Assembly (NCBI RefSeq): GCF_000336635.1
Contig: NZ_AOLY01000042.1
Location: forward strand, 287,136 to 351,135
From: Haloarcula japonica DSM 6131
Lineage (GTDB): Archaea > Halobacteriota > Halobacteria > Halobacteriales > Haloarculaceae
Reading direction: 5' to 3'
DNA: 64,000 nt
Part shown: positions 9,048 through 39,080 of the stretch, piece after piece
Position numbering within the stretch: position 1 is the first letter of the stretch
Layout: each line of letters begins with the position of its first letter
Notes under the pieces: model-generated
What the model saw: the letters and a program-made list of their open reading frames with translations, nothing else
Told to the model about the DNA's origin: nothing
Databases searched by the model: none
Program-made: the position numbers and the translations under genes

Positions 9048-9183
9048 CCCAATTGCCAGACCCATCATCGTTGACTATGGATAGCACACATGTTTAAATA
9101 ACACTGAAAGGACGCTGAAATACTTGCTCCAATCGAAAAAAGAACGGCCCGCAGTCAGGGAATCTGGCGTTCGCTGTCCAGTG

Positions 9184-11757
9184 TCAGGAAACCAACGGTT
9201 CCTCACGGACGGTCGCGTCGTACCGCTCCCCTTCGTAGAGGATTTCGACGCTGGTGCCCGGTTCAGCGTACTCCGGCGGGAGGTACGTGTAGGCGACACA
9301 CGCACCTTCGGTGTAACCGTACTCGGCGCTGTGGAGATAGCCGATGGTCTCGTCGCCGTCGAGGACCGGCTTGTTGTCCAGCACGACAGCGTCCTCGTCG
9401 TCGAGGGTCAGACAGGCGACTTTGTGGTCGATGTTGTCGCCGTCGGCGGCCGCCGCGACTGCCTCCTTGCCGATGAAGTCGGTTTCGAGGTCGACAGCCC
9501 AGCCGAGGCCGGCCTCGTAGGGGTTGTGCTCCGTGTGGAGATCCTTCCCCCAGAGGCGGAACCCTTTCTCGATTCGCAGGGAGTTCAGCGCGCCGTTGCC
9601 GTACGGGCGGATGCCGTACTCCTCGCCGGCCTCCATGATGTGTTCCCAGAGGCGTTCGCCGTACTCCGACGGGGTGTAGAACTCCCAACCGAGTTCGCCC
9701 GCGTAGGAGACCCGAAGCGCGGTCACCGGGATGTTCTTGATGAAGAACTGCTGGCTCGTGAAGAACGGGAAGGCGTCGTCCGAGAGGTCGACATCGGTGA
9801 CCTTCGAGAGGACCTTCCGGGCGTTTGGCCCGGTACAGACCATCGCCGCCAGGCTGGAGGTCACGTCGTTGACGACGACATCCTCGGGTGACTGCTCGCG
9901 CACCCACGCGACGTGGTTGTTCCCGACTTCGCGCCCGGTCGTCAACAGGAGGTAGCGGTCCTCGTCGGTCCGGGTCACGGTGATGTCCGCACGGACGCCG
10001 CCGCCCTCGTTGCACATCAGCGTGTACTTCACGTCGCCAACGTCGATGTCCATGTCGTTCGTACAGAGGTACTGGACGAACTCGCCGGCGTCGCTTCCGA
10101 TCACCTCCATCTTGTTGAAGGAGGTCATGTCGTGGAGGCCGACGTTCTCGCGGACGTTCAGCGCCTCAGCACCCTCGATGGGCGACCAGTACTTTGCCTC
10201 CCAGCCCTCGCGGTCGGGGATCTGGTCACCGTACTCCGCCAGCAGGTCGGCGTTGGAGTCGAACCAGTGTGGTTCCTCCCAGCCGGCCTCGGCCCACAGT
10301 TCGGCGTCGTACTTCTTGTGGGTGTGGTACATCGGGGTTCGGCGGATGTCCCGCTGTGTGTCGGTCCAGACCCACTTGGGGTGCATGATGTTGTAGACGA
10401 TGCGGTACTCCTCACCGCCGATATCACGGGCGAAGTCCCAACTGCCCTCGTGGTCGTCAAAGCGGTTCACGTCGCAATGGGCGAGGTCAATCGGGCCGTC
10501 GGGGAGCCGCGGCTCGCCGTGTTCCATCCACTCGGCGAGCGCCTTGCCAGCACCGCCGGCGTGCGTGACCCAGATGGCCGCCGCCGTCCAGAGCCCGTCG
10601 TACTCCTGAACGGGACCCATCACAGGGAGTCCGTTCGGCGACTCCGCGAACATCCCGTTGTACTTGTGTTCGAGTTCCTTGTCGGCCGTCGCGGGGAGCA
10701 GTTCGTCGCTGGCCTGTCGCGGGGCCTTGTCCGGCCGGTCCGGATGCGTCGCGTTGTCCATGTGGTAGTCGGTGAACTCATGGACAGACCCCTGCTCGCC
10801 ATCCGGGTCGTTCCCGCCGAGGTCCTGCGGATCGGGCACGATGGGCTCGTGGTTGTACGAGCCGATGCCGTAGGAATCCCCGTGATTGCGATAGTACATC
10901 GCGTTGTCCTGGTCGCGGAGAATCGGCCGGTCCGGACCGACGAGGAGCCGCTTTGCTTTCTCCCCGGAAACGTTCTCGTAGTTCTCGAACAGCGGGTGGT
11001 CGGTGATATCGACCGCGCTTTCGGCCAGTTCGTCGAGCGATTCCGTCATAGTGTACTGGTGCTCCACCGGCGTTACCGGCAGGTGCACATCGAGTTTCTC
11101 GCCAAGCTGGCGGGCCCAGATGTTCGTCGCGACGACGACCTCGTTACACTCGATACTGCCGTTTTCCGTGACAACTGCCTGTACTTCGCCGGCCTTCGTT
11201 TCTACGTCCTCGGTACGCGTGTGCGGGACAAATTTCGCGCCTCTGTCCATCGCTTCCCGGGCCAGTGCGTCACACGCGACAACGCCCGAGACCTGCCCGT
11301 CTGTCGGCGAATAGTAGCCGCCTTTGATCTGGTCAGCGTCGACCAGCGGGAGATGCTCGGTGACTTCCTCGGGGGAGAGCAACTGCGGGTCCTCGATGCC
11401 CCAGGCCTTGGCATACTCGACGCGGCGCTGGAGGAAGTCCATGCGTTCCTCACTGCGTGCGACTTCGATGCCGCCCGTTTCGTTGTACGCCTGGTGACCG
11501 TCCGCGCCTTCGAGGTCCGAGTACAGCCGGCGGCTGTAGTCCGCGAATTGGCTGAGTACCTTCGGCTCAGCGGTCTGAAACATTATTCCGGGGGCGTGCG
11601 TCGACGATCCACCCGTGGTCGGCATCGGTCCCTGATCGACCACGACCACGTCTTCTCGGCCGAGCTCTGTCAGCTGGTAGGCGATGTTACAGCCGACGAT
11701 CCCAGCACCGACGATGACGGTATCGGCCTGGGTCGGCAGGCTATCGGTAGGCTCCAT
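9184..11757 (-). CDS. FAD-dependent oxidoreductase fused to GcvT: dimethylglycine/sarcosine dehydrogenase-like (copy B)
   Basis: An 857-aa paralogue of copy A with the same two-domain plan. The Rossmann motif is VIVGAGIVGCNIAYQL, the candidate covalent-FAD histidine is H54 in GGSSTHAPGIMFQT, and the GcvT half contains GGGVRADITVTRTD and RIEKGFRLWGKDLHTEHNP. The expected reaction is oxidative removal of an N-methyl group with transfer to tetrahydrofolate. It lies upstream of the Rieske gene on the same strand with a 180-nt gap holding the Rieske promoter, so the genes are probably separate units under common control. The TATA box at 11788-11797 predicts a leader of about 10 nt before ATG 11757. 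Substrate is inferred from family and context only. Confidence 0.9.
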   Translation of the reverse strand: MEPTDSLPTQADTVIVGAGIVGCNIAYQLTELGREDVVVVDQGPMPTTGGSSTHAPGIMFQTAEPKVLSQFADYSRRLYSDLEGADGHQAYNETGGIEVARSEERMDFLQRRVEYAKAWGIEDPQLLSPEEVTEHLPLVDADQIKGGYYSPTDGQVSGVVACDALAREAMDRGAKFVPHTRTEDVETKAGEVQAVVTENGSIECNEVVVATNIWARQLGEKLDVHLPVTPVEHQYTMTESLDELAESAVDITDHPLFENYENVSGEKAKRLLVGPDRPILRDQDNAMYYRNHGDSYGIGSYNHEPIVPDPQDLGGNDPDGEQGSVHEFTDYHMDNATHPDRPDKAPRQASDELLPATADKELEHKYNGMFAESPNGLPVMGPVQEYDGLWTAAAIWVTHAGGAGKALAEWMEHGEPRLPDGPIDLAHCDVNRFDDHEGSWDFARDIGGEEYRIVYNIMHPKWVWTDTQRDIRRTPMYHTHKKYDAELWAEAGWEEPHWFDSNADLLAEYGDQIPDREGWEAKYWSPIEGAEALNVRENVGLHDMTSFNKMEVIGSDAGEFVQYLCTNDMDIDVGDVKYTLMCNEGGGVRADITVTRTDEDRYLLLTTGREVGNNHVAWVREQSPEDVVVNDVTSSLAAMVCTGPNARKVLSKVTDVDLSDDAFPFFTSQQFFIKNIPVTALRVSYAGELGWEFYTPSEYGERLWEHIMEAGEEYGIRPYGNGALNSLRIEKGFRLWGKDLHTEHNPYEAGLGWAVDLETDFIGKEAVAAAADGDNIDHKVACLTLDDEDAVVLDNKPVLDGDETIGYLHSAEYGYTEGACVAYTYLPPEYAEPGTSVEILYEGERYDATVREEPLVS

Positions 11758-12126
11758 AACTCTGGGTAGAACGTGCTATGGCGTGGCAATATAGTTACCG
11801 ACTGGCCCACTCTCTTTGTAAACTACAACTGGGTTGTCATGTCGTGTTTCAAAATAACAGGAGTACCATTGTTAACAGATTTGGGTCCCCTGTAGTGATT
11901 GTCGCCTCCGTTCAGAGACGGCGAATAGCTTCCAGCAGTCTAATTGTATTGTCAAGTTATGTGTTACCAGCTCTCAATAGTGTTTTCCACACGGTGCTTT
12001 CACACCGTCGACGGTCGCTGTATCGACCACTGTTTCTGCTCTGAGGGGGAAACTCAGTACTGCGCTATATGCCTCAGGGATGCTTCCACTCCTAGCGTTT
12101 TTATCTGTTCGTCGCCGGGCATTAAT
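11758..12126. other. Divergent promoter region between copy B and the aspartoacylase-like gene
   Basis: About 370 nt with no gene. A TATA box for the leftward gene is at 11788-11797 (AACTATATTG on the minus strand). A TATA-like TTTTTATC for the rightward gene is at 12097-12105, placed for leaderless initiation at 12127. The middle part is AT-rich and could hold operator sites, but I see no clear palindrome. Confidence 0.55.
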
Positions 12127-13083
12127 ATGGACTATACCGCTGTCACGCACACGACGACTGACCGACGGCTCGGGAGACTCCCGTCAGGACGAGACGTGTC
12201 CGTGACTGTCCACCGGTACGTCGGCGGCCCCGGGCCGACAGTGTATATTCAGGCGGCACAACACGGCATCGAACTCAACGGCCCAGCCGCACTACGGCGG
12301 CTACACGACCGTCTGACCGATGCAGCCATCGCCGGGACAGTACGCGTCGTCCCGGTAGTGAACCAGCTCGCGTTCGACCACCGGTCGTACATGACTCCCG
12401 GCGAGTACGACGTGATGAATCCGAACCTGAACCGCGTGTGGCCGGGCGATGAGCGTGGAAGCCTACAGGAACAGTTTGCCGCTCAGCTGTGGGAACTCGT
12501 GAAAGACGCGGACGCAGCGGTCGATCTTCATACCGGCACGGCAGACATGCTGGAACACGTTCGGTGTAGGGTGGGCGACACAGACGCCGAGCGCCTCGCC
12601 GAAGCGTTTGGGACGTCCTACAGGCTTACCGACGGACCCGAGAACACAGGCGACGACGGCTCTGGCGGGACGTTCCGCGCTGCGGCTGCAGAAGCTGGGA
12701 TTCCGGTTATCACTGCAGAACTATCGAACAGTCGCCGGATAGCACAGGACGCGGTTGCGGCGGGTGTCGACGGGATACAGAACCTCCTGCGCGAGCGGGC
12801 AGTCCTCCCGGAGGAACCGGAGTCGAAGGCGTCACAGACAGTACTCCGAAACGATGGGGAGCCGGTCACCGCATCGGAATCAGGACTGTTCGAGTGTCGG
12901 TCAGATATCGCTGTGGGAGATACTGTCGACGCCGAGGAGCGACTGGGGACGGTCTACGAACCCTCCTCGTTCGAGCAACAACAGGTCGTCTCGGCGACAG
13001 AACGAGGAGTGATATTCTCGCTTGCCAGGGAGTCTGTCGTCGTGAAAGGAGAGCGTCTCGCAGGTATCGCAACACCGCGATAA
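12127..13083 (+). CDS. Zinc carboxypeptidase-like hydrolase, AstE/aspartoacylase (succinylglutamate desuccinylase) family
   Basis: A 318-aa zinc amidohydrolase. The zinc ligands fit H46 and E49 in QHGIELNG and H135 in DLHTG; NPNLNRVWPG around residue 101 carries the substrate-carboxylate-binding N/R pair of this family. A C-terminal beta domain (SGLFECRSDIAVGDTV) follows, as in larger AstE-like deacylases. Members cleave N-acyl groups from amino acids or related acids (N-acetylaspartate, succinylglutamate, N-acetyl-diaminobutyrate from ectoine). The osmolyte context makes an ectoine- or acyl-amino-acid substrate possible, but nothing here proves it. A long in-frame extension upstream (to 11944) is Cys-rich and rejected. 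Confidence 0.85.
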   Translation: MDYTAVTHTTTDRRLGRLPSGRDVSVTVHRYVGGPGPTVYIQAAQHGIELNGPAALRRLHDRLTDAAIAGTVRVVPVVNQLAFDHRSYMTPGEYDVMNPNLNRVWPGDERGSLQEQFAAQLWELVKDADAAVDLHTGTADMLEHVRCRVGDTDAERLAEAFGTSYRLTDGPENTGDDGSGGTFRAAAAEAGIPVITAELSNSRRIAQDAVAAGVDGIQNLLRERAVLPEEPESKASQTVLRNDGEPVTASESGLFECRSDIAVGDTVDAEERLGTVYEPSSFEQQQVVSATERGVIFSLARESVVVKGERLAGIATPR

Positions 13084-13156
13084 CCGAGACGTATTCGCGA
13101 AGCCGCCCGCGGGCACTGTTTCAGACGTGTGTTGCTAGCCGCAGTTTTGGGGAAGT

Positions 13157-13171
13157 TTATAAATGGGTTCG
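13157..13171 (+). promoter_or_regulatory. Extended TATA promoter element, copy 1 (shared with 14423-14437)
   Basis: TTATAAATGGGTTCG, identical in all 15 bases to the element before the MTHFR-like gene. In both copies exactly 50 nt separate it from the start codon, and a CCAC follows at the same offset. The extension beyond the TATA box suggests a shared transcription factor or promoter duplication. Confidence 0.65.
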
Positions 13172-13221
13172 GTATTCCACACCTATCTCTACACCATAAC
13201 GTGTCATAGTCACTCAATGAC

Positions 13222-14409
13222 ATGGGACTTCACACCGCTTTCACGGCGCTCGCGGAGGTCATTGACGCGTACGAATCCCGCGGTCGGTCTATCGAGACCG
13301 TCGAAGCATCGCCGGCCGACACCGGTGATGCAGTCCTTGATGTGACGGTGGCAATGCCGGTCTCGCTGCGTTCCGGCGGCGGCGCTGATGCGGGACTCAC
13401 GCCGGAGACGGCGAGGCTAACCGGCAGTGGTGACCTCGAAGTCACGTTCTCACCGTCGGCCACTGAACTCCCGTCGACCGCTGGTGCCTCACTGTCGATA
13501 GATGATGCCTCGGCTACGGTTACTGACGACGGCTTGCTCCTGACGGTACAGTTGACAATCGACGCCACAGTTGCGCCAGATGAGGCAGCCAGCGTCGACT
13601 GTGGGCCTGACCAGGGTGACTCTAGCGACACAGCGACAGCTAATACAGTGAGTTCGGCTGGCACCGACGGTGGTCTCTCACTCACTGATGCTGATATTTC
13701 GGAGTCAGAATCTGTCAGTGAGGGAGGCGACGGTTCACAGGAAAGCCCACAGTCAGACGGCCCGGCTACTCAGTCTGGTCGCGAGACCGACTCTGGATCC
13801 GACCCGTTCGCCGCCGTCCGCGACGACTCCGTACCACCGTACGAGGACACCGACTACCTACAAGCACTGTACGACGAGTGCGACAACTTCAGAGAAATCG
13901 CCGAGCAGATACAGATGGACGTCTCCTCCGAGACAGTCCGACGGTACATGATAGAAGCGGATATCCACGTCCCGAACTCGTACGACACCTCCAGTGACGA
14001 CGAGGAGGAACCGTCGGTCAACTCAGGTACCTCGGACGAAGAGACGAGCCAGTCTGAGGCTATGGATCAGGACGGGCAGGTCGATCCGGTCGAGCCTGTG
14101 TCGGCGGAATCAGCCGCGTCCGTCGACGAGTCGGTTGAGGAACTTCCAGACGAGCAACTGGTCACCGACGGGATTGGACTCCCGCCTGCTGTCCAATTGC
14201 AGGACGTCGCGGACGCAGTCGTCGAATCAGACACGGTGTACGAAGTCCAGCGATGCCTGAGTCTCGACCGCGCCCAGACACGGGACCTGCTGGAGGAACT
14301 CAATCTGTTAGATCTCGTCCTGTGCCGGCTCGCAGACGAACCGGATCACGCTGTCTCCTACGGGACTGTGGCCAGTCGAATCCAGCAGTGTGCGCCTCAC
14401 AGCGCGTGA
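13222..14409 (+). CDS. Acidic haloarchaeal protein with central HTH segment (395 aa)
   Basis: Four parts can be seen. A beta-rich N-terminal domain (residues ~1-125) begins MGLHTAFTALAEVIDAYESR. A long Ser/Asp/Glu linker follows. A short helix-turn-helix-like unit contains DTDYLQALYDECDNFREIAE and SSETVRRYMIEADIHVP. A second acidic linker leads to a C-terminal helical domain (DVADAVVESDTVYEVQRCLS ...). The HTH repeats the style of haloarchaeal DNA-binding proteins of unknown role. Its promoter is the twin of that of the downstream MTHFR-like gene, so it may be co-regulated with C1 metabolism or regulate it. No function is assigned. Confidence 0.8.
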   Translation: MGLHTAFTALAEVIDAYESRGRSIETVEASPADTGDAVLDVTVAMPVSLRSGGGADAGLTPETARLTGSGDLEVTFSPSATELPSTAGASLSIDDASATVTDDGLLLTVQLTIDATVAPDEAASVDCGPDQGDSSDTATANTVSSAGTDGGLSLTDADISESESVSEGGDGSQESPQSDGPATQSGRETDSGSDPFAAVRDDSVPPYEDTDYLQALYDECDNFREIAEQIQMDVSSETVRRYMIEADIHVPNSYDTSSDDEEEPSVNSGTSDEETSQSEAMDQDGQVDPVEPVSAESAASVDESVEELPDEQLVTDGIGLPPAVQLQDVADAVVESDTVYEVQRCLSLDRAQTRDLLEELNLLDLVLCRLADEPDHAVSYGTVASRIQQCAPHSA

Positions 14410-14422
14410 TAGAAGCGATATC

Positions 14423-14437
14423 TTATAAATGGGTTCG
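14423..14437 (+). promoter_or_regulatory. Extended TATA promoter element, copy 2
   Basis: TTATAAATGGGTTCG before the MTHFR-like gene, 50 nt from ATG 14488, the same distance as copy 1. Expected transcript start near 14451 with a leader of about 37 nt. Confidence 0.65.
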
Positions 14438-14487
14438 ATGCCCCACCCACAGAGAAAAGTACAGGTACGCCTTATCTCTGGCAACTC

Positions 14488-15348
14488 ATGGCCCTCGGAA
14501 CACGCACTGTCTCAGATAGTCAGGGAGTCCGCACGCTGCTGACGAGCGCCCGGTTCGAACTGATGCCGTTCGAGAGCTTCGACGAGGAGATCACCCATCT
14601 CCCCGACGATGCGACTATCGCGATCACGACCTCGCCACAACTCGGCATAGAGAAGACCGTCGAAAAGACGGAGGAAGCCGCCGAAGTGGGGTTCGATGTC
14701 GTGCCACACATCGCGGCCCGCTATGTGGAAGATCGGGAGCAACTCGAAGCGATAGCCGAGCGACTGGAACAGGCAGGCATTACGGACATCTTCGTCCCAG
14801 GTGGAGACCGCGAGGAACCGGCCGGTGAGTACGAGTCAGCACTCGATATGCTCGAAGCGCTTGCAGAGACAGAGTACTCCTTCGAGGAAGTCGGCATCAC
14901 GGGTTACCCCGAGGGCCACGATTTCATCGACGACGAAACGTTGGCGGAGTCGATGGCACAGAAAGCACCGTACGCGACGTACATCGTCACGCAGTTGTGT
15001 TACGACCCGGATGCCGTGTTAGAGTGGGTCGAAGACATCCGTGCTCGTGGTATCGAGCTCCCGGTGGAAGTCGGTATCCCGGGCGTGATGAACTACCAGC
15101 GATTGATGCAGATCTCTCAGAAGGTCGGCGTCGGTGATTCGATTAAATTCCTCCGGAAGACGACGGGCATTCTCGGGTTCGTCAAGCAACTGGTTGGCTC
15201 CCGCGGGACCTACGAACCAGACGAACTCATCGATGGCCTCGCGCCCTACGTCGGGGACGACGAGTACAACATCCGCGGCGTCCACATCTACACCTTCAAT
15301 CAGACGCCCGACACGGAGAAATGGCGGCACAATCGTCTCGACTCTTGA
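14488..15348 (+). CDS. Methylenetetrahydrofolate reductase-like protein
   Basis: A 286-aa TIM-barrel protein of the MTHFR family, which interconverts 5,10-methylene-THF and 5-methyl-THF with FAD. A conserved-type early glutamate sits in ARFELMPFESFDEEI; the pattern of a His after a hydrophobic strand (DVVPHIAARYV) and the GGDREEP loop correspond to FAD- and folate-contacting segments of MetF. The length is close to bacterial MetF. It is flanked by folate-linked genes (GcvT fusions, DmdA-like, DHFR), which fits handling of methyl groups from demethylation. It is a divergent member, so the electron donor and direction are not certain. It converges on the DmdA-like gene across 292 nt. Confidence 0.8.
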   Translation: MALGTRTVSDSQGVRTLLTSARFELMPFESFDEEITHLPDDATIAITTSPQLGIEKTVEKTEEAAEVGFDVVPHIAARYVEDREQLEAIAERLEQAGITDIFVPGGDREEPAGEYESALDMLEALAETEYSFEEVGITGYPEGHDFIDDETLAESMAQKAPYATYIVTQLCYDPDAVLEWVEDIRARGIELPVEVGIPGVMNYQRLMQISQKVGVGDSIKFLRKTTGILGFVKQLVGSRGTYEPDELIDGLAPYVGDDEYNIRGVHIYTFNQTPDTEKWRHNRLDS

Positions 15349-15640
15349 AACCGACCTGCTTACTGTCCAGACTCGGGACACCCAGCTACAAGTAGCCCGT
15401 TTTCGACCGTCCCACTGGCAGAGACTGCCAGCGAGCCATACTCTGGCCAGAGATCCCCAGCGCAGCCCAGCAAAAAAACGTGAATCGATATTTTCCGGGC
15501 AGTAGCACCTATACGACCGCGAACTATAGGAGAGAGCGGCGTAGGGCCCCAACGGTATCAGTGAAAACCGGGCACGGCAATCGGGCCGTAAAAGATCGGC
15601 GGACGACAAATTGGTGTGTGCTGGGACAGACGGAGTGGGA
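15349..15640. terminator. Convergent intergenic region with hairpin and T-run
   Basis: It separates two convergent genes. A perfect stem-loop lies at 15415-15431 (CTGGCAG, AGA loop, CTGCCAG). A run of seven A on the plus strand (near 15472-15478) is a T7 tract for transcripts of the minus-strand DmdA-like gene, a typical archaeal terminator form. No gene is seen here. Confidence 0.4.
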
Positions 15641-17017
15641 TCAGTCGTCGCTTTCGGCCTCTTTCCGGGCGTTGAGCTTCGCCTGCTCACGGGCGCTCGG
15701 GTTGACAGACTCCTTGAACGGCACCTTTGCGGCGGTGGCGAACACCGGTTCGCCGGGTTCGTCGGCGTACTCATCGGGGAGATGGACCTGGAACTCTAAG
15801 TCCAGCTCCTCATCGTAGATATCGTCGTTGAGCGGCGTGTCGGTGACCTCCTGAATCTTCTCGGCCGGGACGAATCCCATCCCGATGTTCGTTTCGAGAT
15901 CCGGATTCCACCACGGAGAGGTGAGGTAGCCGCATTCCTCGCCCGTGTCCGAGTCGGAGATGAGCCAGAAGTCGGGGGCGTAGTCACGGATCGGTTCGCC
16001 AGCGATCTTCAGGCCGATGAGTTTGTGTTCGAACGGATAGTTGCCGTTCTCGATCTGTTCTTTCTGTTCTTCGAGAACCTCTTTGCCGATGTAGTCCGCT
16101 TCCTTGTCATCAGGGACGTGATACCCGAGGTTGACCTGGAACGGCGAGGTCTCATGGTCGAGGTCCTGACCCCAGGACATGATGCCGGCGGCGATCCGGC
16201 GGTGGTGACCAGGTGCGATCTGGCGACCGTCGTGGTCTTTGACGGACTCCATGACGGGGTCCCAGACCCGTTCGGCGTTTTCCATCGCGTCTTTGACGTA
16301 GATTTCGAAGCCTTTCTCGCCCGAGAAGCCGGTCTGGCTAATCAACACTTCACAGCCGTCAATCTCGGCCTCCATCAGACCGTAGTAGGGCACGTCTTTG
16401 ACCTCGTCGCCGACGACGTCGACCATCACGTCGAGCGCCCTCGGGCCCTGGATCTGCATCGGTGCCACGTCGATCTCGTCGATTTCGACGTCGAAGTCGT
16501 TGTCGACGTTGACGCCCTGTAGCCACTGCATCAGCGTCGAGTCCGAGATGGAGAACCAGAACTCGTCTTCCTCGGGGCGGAGCAACACTGGATCGTTCAG
16601 GACGCCACCGTCTTCATTGCACAGGATGACGTATTTCCCGTCCATGGCGTCCATTCCTGTCACGTCGCGGGTGACGACGTAGTTCGTCAGCGCCTCGGCG
16701 TCGGGCCCTTTGACCCGGATCTGTCGCTCTACGGCGACGTCCCAGAGGGTGACGGTGTTAGTCAGTGCGTCGTATTCCTTCATCACGCCGCCGTCCTCGG
16801 GCTCGATGAGGCCGCGCGGGTGATAGAGGCGGTTGTAAACGGTTGCCCGCCAGGCACCCTCCTCGTTGAAGGACTTGTGGAAGAACGGGGACTTTCGAAC
16901 GCGCGTTGACACCAACATCTCGATGTTGGGGTCACCAGTCTGGCGGAGGTTACGGGGGACGGTCCGGTCTGACTGGTCGACACTGGGATAGTTAGGATGT
17001 TCCTCGTTACCGGTCAT
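15641..17017 (-). CDS. Free-standing GcvT-family aminomethyltransferase/demethylase, DmdA-like
   Basis: A 458-aa GcvT-fold protein without an oxidoreductase domain. The middle strand reads NEDGGVLNDPVLLRPEEDEF, closer to the NDPVLL of DMSP demethylase DmdA than to the DD pair of the glycine-cleavage T protein; SQTGFSGEKGFEIYV also resembles DmdA. It is longer than GcvT (~365 aa), with an N-terminal extension that includes SPFFHKSFNEEGAW. Such enzymes move a methyl group from a sulfonium or N-methyl compound to THF, giving 5-methyl-THF, which fits the MTHFR-like neighbour. The real substrate (DMSP, a betaine, a methoxy compound) cannot be fixed. TATA-like ACTAATAAAAG at 17041-17051 predicts a nearly leaderless mRNA. 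Confidence 0.85.
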   Translation of the reverse strand: MTGNEEHPNYPSVDQSDRTVPRNLRQTGDPNIEMLVSTRVRKSPFFHKSFNEEGAWRATVYNRLYHPRGLIEPEDGGVMKEYDALTNTVTLWDVAVERQIRVKGPDAEALTNYVVTRDVTGMDAMDGKYVILCNEDGGVLNDPVLLRPEEDEFWFSISDSTLMQWLQGVNVDNDFDVEIDEIDVAPMQIQGPRALDVMVDVVGDEVKDVPYYGLMEAEIDGCEVLISQTGFSGEKGFEIYVKDAMENAERVWDPVMESVKDHDGRQIAPGHHRRIAAGIMSWGQDLDHETSPFQVNLGYHVPDDKEADYIGKEVLEEQKEQIENGNYPFEHKLIGLKIAGEPIRDYAPDFWLISDSDTGEECGYLTSPWWNPDLETNIGMGFVPAEKIQEVTDTPLNDDIYDEELDLEFQVHLPDEYADEPGEPVFATAAKVPFKESVNPSAREQAKLNARKEAESDD

Positions 17018-17040
17018 GCCTATGAAAGAAGATGTGAAAT

Positions 17041-17051
17041 ACTAATAAAAG
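17041..17051 (-). promoter_or_regulatory. TATA box of the DmdA-like gene
   Basis: CTTTTATTAGT on the minus strand, centred about 30 nt before ATG 17017. Confidence 0.5.
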
Positions 17052-17254
17052 ATATTGTTACTTGCTTCTGGGGTTTATATGCGGGGGAGACTTCGCTGGC
17101 AGTGACGATACTCTGAACCGTTGTTTAACAGCTCCAGACCATGAATATTCAGCAGAATACGGTATCGTGTTACTCGACTGAGACTGGTGGCTGTAGTACA
17201 AAACGACCGGCACGGAGCACGACCGAGCGGCCGCTGTGCCTGCTCGGACAGATA

Positions 17255-17752
17255 TCATTCCGAGTCACTGCTGGTTCGGGTGTATTTGACGATATCGAAG
17301 TCACTGTGTGTCGTTCGGTCCGTCTCAGTCCAGCACGACCAGTCGACTGTCGGGAACACGGTATCGCCATCGAAAGCCGCTGTTAGTTCGGTGAGGATTA
17401 GCTCGTCGGCCTGTGGGAGAAACTGCTTGTACACAGTAGCACCGCCGATGACGTACGCCGTAGATGCGTCACTATCGGCCGCTTCGGCCAACGCCGCCGT
17501 CGTCGAGGTGACAGCCGTGACGTTGTCGGGAAGTCGATGGGGCGTCGTGGTCAGAACAATGTTCAGTCGCTCCGGCAGCGGGCCACCAAGCTCACGCCGA
17601 ATACTCTCGAAGGTCCGCCGCCCCATAATCACCGGATGACCGATAGTCGTCTGTTTGAAATGTGTCAGATCCTCGGGAAACTGCCACGGAATGTCGCCGC
17701 CGGCACCGATCACTCCGTTTGCCGCGACGGCGGCGATCAGCGAGAGTTTCAT
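17255..17752 (-). CDS. Dihydrofolate reductase
   Basis: A 165-aa NADPH-dependent reductase of dihydrofolate to tetrahydrofolate. The N-terminus [20 protein letters not shown], tryptophan W23 in DIPWQFPED, the proton-donor acid D28, and [10 protein letters not shown] are all textbook DHFR features. I chose ATG 17752 because the strand-A sequence begins there; the upstream in-frame extension to 17878 is not DHFR-like. It keeps the THF pool reduced for the GcvT-type enzymes nearby. It precedes the DmdA-like gene on the same strand, with a 237-nt gap that holds the latter's promoter. Confidence 0.95.
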
Positions 17753-18450: not shown

Positions 18451-19104
18451 TCACTCTTCCCTGTCAATTATTGTTGCCGCAATGAGGTTCCGCATTCCCC
18501 GCCGGAGCCGGCCGCTCATCGCTGTCGAGGACAGTCCGATTTCGGCGGCGACTTCGTTCAAGGAGATATCCCTAGGTTCTCCGAAATAGCCGTTTTCGTA
18601 TGCGGTTGTCAGTGCGGTCCGCTGTTCATCGGTCAACCCGTACGACGACTCACCGCCGGTGTCCGTGTTTCCGTAGATTTCGATGATATCGAGCGAGATG
18701 TCGTTCTCGTTGGCATACTCCCAGATCGTATTGAGCGCTTCGCGGTCAGGGAGCAGGAGTCGGACGAGCCACCCGTTGCCCTTCGTCTCTGTATGGACGA
18801 GAAAACCGTTGACATCGGTAACGACAGAGCTGATGAGTTTCGTTTCGGGAGTGTGTTCGATGTAGTATATGCCGGTCTGGTCGGTCCAGTCGACGAGTTC
18901 GTAGCTCTGGACTGTCGGATCGACATCGAGCATCTCTTCGAGTCGGTCTCTGTCACGATACTTGATGAGGAATGGAAACACAGTGGAGCCCGGATCGGTA
19001 TTCCCCTGCGTGATGACACGGATCGCTATGTCTTCGAGGTTTTGTAACGTTGGAACCAGAGCGAGGCGTTCGTGTTCGATGTGTATTTTCGTCGTTATTG
19101 ACAT
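18451..19104 (-). CDS. Bacterio-opsin-activator-type HTH transcription regulator
   Basis: A 217-aa regulator. Residues ~1-150 form a ligand/sensor-like domain typical of the haloarchaeal Bat family. Residues ~155-215 carry the HTH_10 domain (GLTDEQRTALTTAYENGYFG, then ISLNEVAAEIGLSSTAMSGR LRRG-type recognition helix). Such proteins control single nearby or remote genes in haloarchaea. It stands alone: the nearest genes are the 91-aa membrane protein and, beyond an AT-rich spacer, a small gene and nitrilase. Target unknown. Confidence 0.88.
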   Translation of the reverse strand: MSITTKIHIEHERLALVPTLQNLEDIAIRVITQGNTDPGSTVFPFLIKYRDRDRLEEMLDVDPTVQSYELVDWTDQTGIYYIEHTPETKLISSVVTDVNGFLVHTETKGNGWLVRLLLPDREALNTIWEYANENDISLDIIEIYGNTDTGGESSYGLTDEQRTALTTAYENGYFGEPRDISLNEVAAEIGLSSTAMSGRLRRGMRNLIAATIIDREE

Positions 19105-37869: not shown

Positions 37870-38763
37870 CTACGGAAGTGTTATATCGATACCGGACTGC
37901 AGGCTAGCCGCTTTCGCAGTGTTGTACATCAGCATCGCAATGGTGAGCGGACCGACACCTCCGGGGACTGGGGTGATGGCGTCCGCTTTCGTTTTCGCGC
38001 TCTCGAACTCCACGTCACCGACGAGTTCGTACCCCTTCTCCGTGTCAGCATCGACCCGGTTGATACCCACATCAACGACTGTCGTGCCCTCCGAGAGCAT
38101 CGATCCGTCTATCATTTCCGGAACCCCGGCGGCGGCGATCACGATGTCGGCATTGCGAGTCTTTTCGGCGAGATCGGCAGTTCGGGAGTGGCACACGGTC
38201 GTCGTCGCGTTGCCGCCCGTCCCGTACTGGATGAGCAGGTTCGCCATCGGCTTGCCGACGATGTCCGAGCGGCCGACGACGACGGCGTCTTTCCCCTCCG
38301 TCTCAACACCCGTTTCTGCCAGTATTTTCTGTATTCCGTGGGGTGTGCAAGGCTTGTATCGTGCGTTCCCCGCGACGAGCCGCCCGACGTTTTCGGGATG
38401 GAACCCGTCGACGTCTTTCATCGGGTCGATGCGTTCCAGTACGTCGCGCTTGTTCACGTGGTCGGGGACCGGCATCTGGACGAGGATTCCGTGAACAGCC
38501 GGGTCCCCGTTCAGTTCATCGATAGTCGAGAATAGCGTTTCGGCCGGTTCGTCCGCGTTGATTTCGTGATGAAACCCCTCGATACCGATTTCCTCACAGG
38601 CCTGTTGTTTCATCGAGACGTACGTTTCGCTCGCGCCGTCGTCGCTCATCAGCACAGTCGCCAGCCCCGGTGTGACATCCTCGCTGATGAGTGTATCCGT
38701 ACACGCCGCGACGCCGTCTGTGATCTGGTCGCCGATTTCGTTACCGTCGATTATTGTAGTCAT
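37870..38763 (-). CDS. folD: Bifunctional methylene-THF dehydrogenase/methenyl-THF cyclohydrolase
   Basis: A 297-aa enzyme interconverting 5,10-methylene-, methenyl- and 10-formyl-THF. The catalytic lysine is in TYVSMKQQACEEIG, substrate Asp in DVDGFHPENVGRL, NADP loop in VVGRSDIVGKPMANLL, and the C-terminal PVPGGVGPLTIAMLM is diagnostic. It links methylene-THF made by the GcvT fusions to formyl-THF and, through formate, to the formate dehydrogenase at 47.4 kb. It is alone in orientation, converging on the zinc protein gene. Confidence 0.96.
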   Translation of the reverse strand: MTTIIDGNEIGDQITDGVAACTDTLISEDVTPGLATVLMSDDGASETYVSMKQQACEEIGIEGFHHEINADEPAETLFSTIDELNGDPAVHGILVQMPVPDHVNKRDVLERIDPMKDVDGFHPENVGRLVAGNARYKPCTPHGIQKILAETGVETEGKDAVVVGRSDIVGKPMANLLIQYGTGGNATTTVCHSRTADLAEKTRNADIVIAAAGVPEMIDGSMLSEGTTVVDVGINRVDADTEKGYELVGDVEFESAKTKADAITPVPGGVGPLTIAMLMYNTAKAASLQSGIDITLP

Positions 38764-39080
38764 TATTGCTGGGTTCGTTCTCAGCCCGGCAGTTCCCGAG
38801 AAGGTGTTCGGGAGTAGGAACCGCTACTGTTAGTCAGCAGTCGGAGCCGGGCAAGCGTTCGATACTCATCTCAAACCCCGCGGGTATAGTGGGTGATGCG
38901 GAATAGTCCAACCGTTGAAGTACCACCGGCTATTCGTCCAGCGAGCAACCACAAGCGGTCTACAATTCAACAGTATATCGGCCGGAGGGGCAAGGGACCG
39001 AAAGTTTTTGTCCTGACCCATGCTTGCTCTACACAACCATACCGAGAGGCATGGGCCTCTCGTCCGGGAGCAACTGCACT
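38764..39080. other. Divergent region between folD and the chorismate-using synthase
   Basis: About 317 nt. It holds the folD promoter side on the left and a TATA-like AAAGTTTTTG near 39001-39010 for the rightward gene. A perfect stem-loop sits in the predicted leader at 39043-39062. No gene is seen. Confidence 0.5.
39043..39062 (+). promoter_or_regulatory. Leader hairpin enclosing an in-frame ATG
   Basis: Stem CGAGAGGC/GCCTCTCG of 8 bp with loop ATGG (39051-39054). The ATG in the loop is in frame with the synthase and 30 nt upstream of ATG 39081. The stem could control initiation or early termination. Confidence 0.45.

Follow-up and report, generated by a model that had tools for sequence, protein, structure and literature searches.

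A short sequence box, GGGTT, directly follows the TATA element of two neighboring genes in a 64,000-nucleotide stretch of the Haloarcula japonica DSM 6131 genome (the window, that is, the whole stretch of DNA analyzed). Comparison across haloarchaea shows this box to be genuine and conserved, with almost no other occurrence in the genome, and ties it to the gene for a 395-aa helix-turn-helix (HTH) protein. We consider it fairly probable, from the comparative sequence evidence, that this box is a cis-regulatory element controlling a folate one-carbon regulon, with the HTH protein as the most likely binder and as a repressor of its own gene; the members of the regulon would be the HTH gene, the adjacent gene for a methylenetetrahydrofolate reductase (MTHFR)-like protein and the remote folD gene. 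The novelty lies in the regulatory element and the likely small regulon with its uncatalogued regulator, whereas the kind of system is already known; in the literature searched, mostly outside subscription journals, we found no paper on this box or regulator. If this reading is correct, a protein now annotated as hypothetical would turn out to control the flow of folate one-carbon units while betaine is broken down in salt-loving archaea; its operator would be defined, its regulon would comprise three genes, and archaea would gain an uncatalogued family of regulators.

A conserved box adjacent to TATA in two neighboring promoters

The 15-mer TTATAAATGGGTTCG occurs at positions 13157-13171 and 14423-14437 of the window; each copy is followed by 50 nt and then by an ATG (13222 and 14488) that opens a frame of 395 and 286 aa, respectively, and in both promoters CCAC is located 5 nt downstream of the 15-mer. 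These three observations, made in a first-pass annotation of this DNA, were all confirmed by direct reading. With up to 3 mismatches allowed, the window contains 4 matches to the 15-mer against 0.55 expected, and none of 100 shuffles reached 4. In the genome (4,280,359 bases in 48 contigs), 3 matches were found at up to 2 mismatches, namely, the two exact copies and a single 2-mismatch site elsewhere, compared with 1 match for the reversed control pattern; no further copy with up to 1 mismatch exists in these 4.28 Mb. A looser pattern that includes the downstream arm yielded 4 sites, two of which are the promoters of the HTH gene and the MTHFR-like gene, vs 3 for the control. The possibility raised in the first-pass annotation, that the motif is widespread at unrelated promoters or missing upstream of orthologs, was not borne out: it is nearly unique in the genome and is kept upstream of orthologs in many genera. 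A chance coincidence of two TATA boxes, which would account for the AT-rich half common to such boxes and for nothing further, has a negligible probability, being refuted by the shuffles, the lack of another genomic copy at up to 1 mismatch and the cross-genus conservation.

A search with the MTHFR-like protein produced 22 loci, from which two bacterial ones (L024 and L025) were dropped; the HTH gene adjoins in 16 of the 20 haloarchaeal loci, and the closest named relatives are Haloarcula species. All 16 adjacent-pair loci carry the box in both promoters, in the form TATA-GGGTT-N8-CACCC-ACAGAnAAAAGTA before the MTHFR-like gene and TATA-GGGTT-nnn-TATTCC-n-CAC before the HTH gene. The core varies by at most 2 bases (AGGTT, GTGTT, TGGTT and GGGTG, along with ATGTT, seen at the MTHFR-like promoters of L019 and L023). 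When further loci were added to these 16, a recognizable box was present in both promoters of 26 of the 28 HTH/MTHFR-like pairs. The Halobellus rufus pair has the box in neither promoter, and in Halobellus limi the MTHFR-like gene lacks it while the HTH gene is preceded by a changed core, GCCTT. In Haladaptatus, one pair has ATGTT in the MTHFR-like promoter and no more than a weak ATGTG in the HTH promoter, another locus (L015) has the box (ATGTT) although its HTH gene is outside the flank and was found separately in the genome, and Haladaptatus salinisoli shows altered cores at both boxes.

Apart from Haladaptatus, no box precedes the MTHFR-like genes that lack an adjacent HTH gene (L020, L021, L022, L117-L119, L123 and L125-L130), nor that of L116, which has a distant HTH homolog some kilobases away. 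Several genomes with such boxless loci hold a distant homolog of the HTH family, and the genome of L022 contains a second MTHFR-like gene (L035) with both the box and an HTH neighbor. The same box is found in the HTH gene's own promoter and in the promoters of its proposed targets, the arrangement expected of an autoregulated local regulator with an operator downstream of TATA.

Anatomy of the box

Conservation was counted as the mean majority-base fraction over 19 representative loci, not all from different genera, to which near-identical species had been reduced. In the promoter of the HTH gene (forward strand), the TATA box, TTATAAAT (13157-13164), scores 0.78, and the GGGTT box (13165-13169), the proposed operator half, scores 0.95 compared with 0.37 for upstream DNA; it is followed by TATTCC and then CAC (13173-13182), a motif conserved in the HTH-gene and folD promoters (HTH type, hereafter). 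The promoter of the MTHFR-like gene, also on the forward strand, has the same TATA box, TTATAAAT (14423-14430; 0.83), the GGGTT box (14431-14435; 0.92 vs 0.42 for upstream DNA), again the proposed operator half, and a right arm, CACCC with the following ACAGAGAAAAGTA (14444-14461), that completes a partial dyad, GGGT-N10-ACCC; within this arm, CACCC scores 0.93 and the next twelve bases 0.75. GGGTT is therefore more conserved than TATA in both promoter types, whereas the right arm is type-specific: CACCC in the MTHFR type and TATTCC, at 0.94, in the HTH type. Conservation extends beyond BRE, TATA and the -10 element, and the levels for GGGTT and the right arm match or exceed that of TATA, which argues against an ordinary TATA promoter, and what had been taken for one extended TATA element is instead TATA plus a separate, adjacent GGGTT box plus further motifs downstream.

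Over the same representative loci, GGGTT variants tend to match within genomes (88 of 95 positions vs 83.3 in permutations, p 0.006, a value uncorrected for relatedness; one change is common to two of the telling lineages); the same permutation counts detected no within-genome agreement of TATA (p 0.41) or of the next three bases (p 0.79). In the MTHFR-type dyad, 81 percent of the cells pair, compared with 25-59 percent on sliding; the HTH-type dyad, at its own spacing, is weaker. A palindrome maintained by compensatory changes was considered and rejected, covariation in the MTHFR type being no better than in shuffles (312/500).

The identical 50-nt spacing, exact as it is in the window, does not generalize: it is lineage-specific, with equal spacing in 10 of 27 pairs and different spacing in the other 17 (L074, which has no box, was left out of these counts), and we rejected it as a functional rule. 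Measured from GGGTT to ATG, the distance ranges over 53-58 nt in 29 loci of the MTHFR-like gene and over 57-63 nt in 27 loci of the HTH gene. These data also bear on the idea that part of one promoter was recently copied to the neighboring one by duplication or conversion. Such an event would readily explain 15 identical bases at identical spacing in the window but is hardly credible given that, beyond TATA and GGGTT, each promoter has distinct motifs of its own that persist across many genera (TATTCCnCAC before the HTH gene vs CACCCACA before the MTHFR-like gene), that spacing differs in most pairs and that the distant folD gene has an HTH-type box; an ancient duplication kept by selection is possible, while a recent one is contradicted by the conservation. 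Accordingly, of the two explanations originally offered for the repeat, a shared regulator is well supported by conservation among orthologs, near-uniqueness in the genome and the third, folate-related gene, and promoter duplication is not supported, given the distinct motifs of each promoter.

Between the expected start site of the HTH gene and its ATG (13184-13221), GTGTCATAG-like and CAATAAC-ATG blocks are kept in several genera, which may represent a second control element. No known RNA element was found in 11700-17500, where no Rfam family matched at its gathering score.

A third box upstream of folD

Scanning the window with a matrix built from HTH-gene promoters alone, we obtained scores of 42.3 for the HTH promoter, 17.9 for a site at 38921 on the minus strand and 13.0 for the MTHFR-like promoter; when the two Haloarcula rows were removed from the matrix, the order was the same (36.2, 18.8 and 11.0, respectively). 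In the whole window, only the HTH promoter outscores the site at 38921. Of 100 random windows, one attained 17.9, and their best scores averaged 7.3. Footprinting of two neighboring promoters led to a remote candidate target: the site is an HTH-type box (38889-38921, minus strand; core GGTTG at 38913-38909 and TATTCC at 38905-38900) located before folD (37870-38763, minus strand), which is proposed as the third target and encodes a 297-aa methylene-THF dehydrogenase/cyclohydrolase with 91 percent identity to the product of a gene so annotated on the H. marismortui plasmid NC_006395. The core of this box lies 150 nt before folD, and folD is about 24 kb from the HTH/MTHFR-like pair. The box was detected in 20 of 20 fetched folD loci of the genus, 73-155 nt upstream of the gene, and was the best-scoring site among the matches listed. 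In relatives, folD is divergent from an anthranilate-synthase-type gene, and the box is oriented toward folD. Outside the genus, folD has such a box in Haladaptatus, in G042 and, in weak form, in Halorientalis; in Haladaptatus salinisoli (L258 and L114), a near-consensus folD box and the altered boxes of the HTH and MTHFR-like genes are located on one plasmid.

An HTH homolog was identified on 30 plasmid records. Among genus genomes, those with a second folD have the long HTH gene in 10 of 10 tested cases, compared with 0 of 9 others; among the latter, G352 contains fragments of a broken folD whose type is unclear. Six plasmids of another clade (two from Haloterrigena and one each from Natronococcus, Natrinema, Halocatena and Haloprofundus) encode an HTH homolog, with its own box, and a folD without one. 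Plasmids of Halostagnicola and Halosolutus had neither a detectable HTH homolog nor a folD box, and those of Halomicrococcus and Salinigranum had a distant HTH homolog only and no folD box.

Genome-wide profile scans

Two profiles, R1 from the HTH-gene and folD boxes and R2 from the MTHFR-like boxes, both trained partly on the sites they find, were run against 21 genomes of the genus. With R1, 15 genomes each showed two strong sites (E 4.4e-4 or lower), one upstream of the HTH gene and the other upstream of folD, and in the same 15 R2 found one strong site apiece (E 2.7e-4 or lower), always immediately before an MTHFR-like gene; in the remaining six, neither profile produced anything below E 0.02. 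When R1 was applied to 242 genomes of the class with an upper limit of E 0.01, it found 45 sites, distributed over 30 genomes, of which 29 precede an HTH-family gene, 15 precede folD and 1 has no assigned gene; the latter is a lone HTH-type box (L251, G117:C3:960698-960724, E 0.006). The MTHFR-type pattern with at most 1 mismatch matched in 34 of 292 genomes, compared with 2 of 292 for the control; among its 35 matches, 30 of which were taken as loci, 22 lie some 60 nt ahead of the start of an MTHFR-like gene and have the HTH gene on their upstream side, and the other 8 do not precede an MTHFR-like gene. A one-mismatch MTHFR-type box (L085, G037:C1:2644017) lies 120 nt before an ORF that, judged by eye, we take to resemble the catalytic subunit of carbon-monoxide dehydrogenase.

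The scarcity of sites bears on yet another explanation, namely, that the box is an alternative core promoter for one of the several haloarchaeal TFB/TBP, with no dedicated regulator involved. The box does touch TATA, and multiple TBP and TFB are described for Halobacterium in the accessible text of PMC2121645, but a promoter class of this sort should serve many genes, and there are only two or three strong sites per genome, so that we find this account very improbable. Compared with the haloarchaeal core promoter as presented in PMC4983044 (BRE, TATA and -10 WW), the promoters described here are alike in having TATA at promoter distance from the start region and differ in GGGTT directly after TATA, which is not among the core elements in the parts of that paper available to us.

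The HTH protein, the MTHFR-like protein and their genomic island

The HTH protein (13222-14409, forward strand; 395 aa), the proposed regulator, is annotated as hypothetical in relatives and has no family assignment in Pfam (no match at E 0.001, HTH_10, PF04967, included) or NCBIfam. The motif ETVRRYM (residues 237-243), invariant in an alignment of 31 sequences of the family, maps to the last helix in a unit of three (210-219, 223-230 and 236-245) in the predicted fold (mean pLDDT 67, pTM 0.32), which also includes a second helical unit (310-390) and an alpha/beta domain (residues 1-114). From this model, the helical units might bind DNA, and the N-terminus might bind a ligand or form dimers. 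A Foldseek search of the model against the PDB returned nothing at E 0.001 or below. A second structural comparison, which covered residues 1-121 only and hence hardly touched the putative DNA-binding parts, gave PilO as the best match (Z 9.2, rmsd 2.7, 87 aligned), a likeness that may be just a common arrangement. By sequence, the protein matches PDB entry 8erw (molecule C2HR4_8r, E 4.8e-6, profile positions 20-136).

The proposed target next to it (14488-15348, forward strand; 286 aa) matches Pfam PF02219 with 56.4 bits against a cut-off of 24, but falls short of the NCBIfam equivalog cut-offs (69.2 bits vs 293.7 for TIGR00676), and for this reason we call it MTHFR-like. The surroundings read as a betaine and folate one-carbon island on a haloarchaeal megaplasmid, judging from gene content. 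Plasmid pNG700 of H. marismortui has the same gene order, with counterparts annotated as BCCT transporter, threonine ammonia-lyase, two FAD-dependent oxidoreductases, ring-hydroxylating oxygenase, AstE/AspA-like, HTH (called hypothetical), MTHFR-like, glycine-cleavage T-like, dihydrofolate reductase and HTH regulator. The genes also occur in Haloarcula hispanica, a laboratory strain amenable to genetics. The oxidoreductases in the window resemble dimethylglycine oxidases in combining DAO and GcvT domains, and the oxygenase shows a relationship, short of the cut-off, to glycine-betaine monooxygenase; in relatives, the surroundings further include serine hydroxymethyltransferase, formate-THF ligase, folP and formate dehydrogenase. 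The use of betaine by haloarchaea has been proposed earlier from such genes (PMC3102087), in an account that includes the same kind of island, with BCCT and dimethylglycine-oxidase-like genes, and names Haloarcula marismortui; the terms helix-turn-helix and methylenetetrahydrofolate are absent from its main text.

Other promoters of the island were inspected by eye. Those of the AstE-like, 857-aa dimethylglycine-oxidase-like and DmdA-like genes are conserved and show no box among the loci listed, and reading of one promoter each for the 853-aa, threonine-lyase-like, HTH_10 and nitrilase-like genes yielded no carrier either. The Rieske oxygenase gene, read in the same way, is an uncertain case: it is preceded by a weak HTH-type site, ATTTAAACATGTGTGCTATCCATAG, at 9099 on the minus strand that scores 8.0-9.5, close to the random mean best. 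The DmdA-like gene (15641-17017) has a long upstream block of its own (17018-17100, minus strand), from CATATAAA to TTTTAT, that is kept in 14 loci and contains no GGGTT.

Proposed mechanism and alternative binders

TATA is usually located about 26/27 bases before the transcription start in the cases reviewed in PMC4158304, which would put GGGTT at roughly -22 to -18 and the right arm at roughly -9 to -5. In the mechanism that we propose, TATA would be followed at once by GGGTT and, about ten bases on, by a second, partly symmetrical arm; the HTH protein would occupy this box between TATA and the transcription start and block polymerase at its own promoter and at those of the two enzyme genes, to be released when a ligand signals incoming one-carbon units, which would arrive from betaine demethylation. 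Autorepression appears to be the best reading because regulators bound downstream of TATA repress in the reviewed cases (PMC4158304), and the presence of the box in the HTH gene's own promoter fits autoregulation.

Alternatively, the HTH protein might bind the box but activate, for example, by aiding TFB or polymerase at weak TATA elements. Several carrier promoters indeed have poor TATA boxes (CTTCAA and TTTGAA), and activation through TFB recruitment is known for TFB-RF1 (PMC4158304; PMC5937170, in the text available); the reviewed activator sites, however, are upstream of BRE/TATA (PMC4158304), whereas the box is downstream, and we regard activation as quite unlikely.

The main rival candidate as binder is the Bat-like HTH_10 regulator encoded in the same island (18451-19104, minus strand; PF04967, 59.7 bits), for which the box would be the operator at the HTH gene, the MTHFR-like gene and folD, leaving the HTH protein as a target only. 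An ortholog-level match to this regulator (E 1e-30 or better) is present in 26 of the 27 genomes with the box, the one miss being a genome that is 58 percent complete, so that co-occurrence does not single out the HTH protein; the regulator is also encoded on those plasmids with an HTH homolog that belong to Haloterrigena, Natronococcus, Haloprofundus and Halocatena. The 395-aa protein, which lacks the HTH_10 domain, has the box in its own promoter, whereas none was seen in the promoter of the HTH_10 gene. In addition, a position downstream of TATA is that of a repressor rather than an activator in the cases reviewed in PMC4158304, and the fact that HTH genes in other clades of the family have TATA-adjacent motifs of their own is more in keeping with self-recognition. 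On balance, we consider the HTH_10 protein an unlikely binder.

For repression by the HTH protein itself, we counted the near-uniqueness of the box, its presence in 26 of 28 pairs, the stronger conservation of GGGTT than of TATA, the unprompted recovery of folD and the retention of its box in the genus, the profile scans, the co-occurrence of the second folD with the long HTH gene, the within-genome agreement of GGGTT variants and the disappearance of the core from both promoters of Halobellus. Against it, we counted the co-occurrence of the HTH_10 regulator, the boxless folD genes on six plasmids of another clade, the altered boxes of Haladaptatus next to a near-consensus folD box, the lack of dyad covariation, the different right arms of the two promoter types, the 8 of 30 pattern loci located elsewhere and the training overlap of R1 and R2.

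Among the closest known systems are repressors of archaea, of the TrmB type and others, whose binding sites are located between TATA and the start. As described in the available text of PMC4158304, these are similar in having a downstream, partly palindromic operator at metabolic genes and, for some, in proposed autoregulation, as we propose for the HTH protein; their sites are of the TACT or TATCAC type, in contrast to GGGT-N10-ACCC or GGGTT plus TATTCC here. The TrmB domain (PF01978) is weakly detectable in 6 of the 31 family members (best E 0.013), whereas the window protein itself has no match at E 1.

Relatives of the HTH protein in other clades

More broadly, and tentatively, the HTH protein might represent an undescribed family of haloarchaeal transcription factors, the main clade of which would be a dedicated, self-limiting regulator of the tetrahydrofolate one-carbon pool acting on GGGTT upstream of its own coding region, of the MTHFR-like gene and of folD, with paralogs of other clades having shifted to other TATA-adjacent boxes; the architecture predicted for this family comprises an N-terminal alpha/beta domain, disordered acidic linkers and two helical, DNA-binding-like units. 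Among the neighbors of other HTH-family paralogs, no convincing matching box was found in 6 loci. HTH-family genes of other clades (L042, L044, L047 and L054) keep ATTC-CAC-like motifs at the same distance past TATA, with no GGGTT, and three of these (L042, L047 and L054) adjoin HTH_10 regulators. In Haloarcula, a 308-aa paralog of the HTH protein (L060, 4022-4985, minus strand) is encoded between amidohydrolase-like genes and is preceded by a TCCCA-N10-TGGGA dyad in its own genome, with similar dyads in three others.
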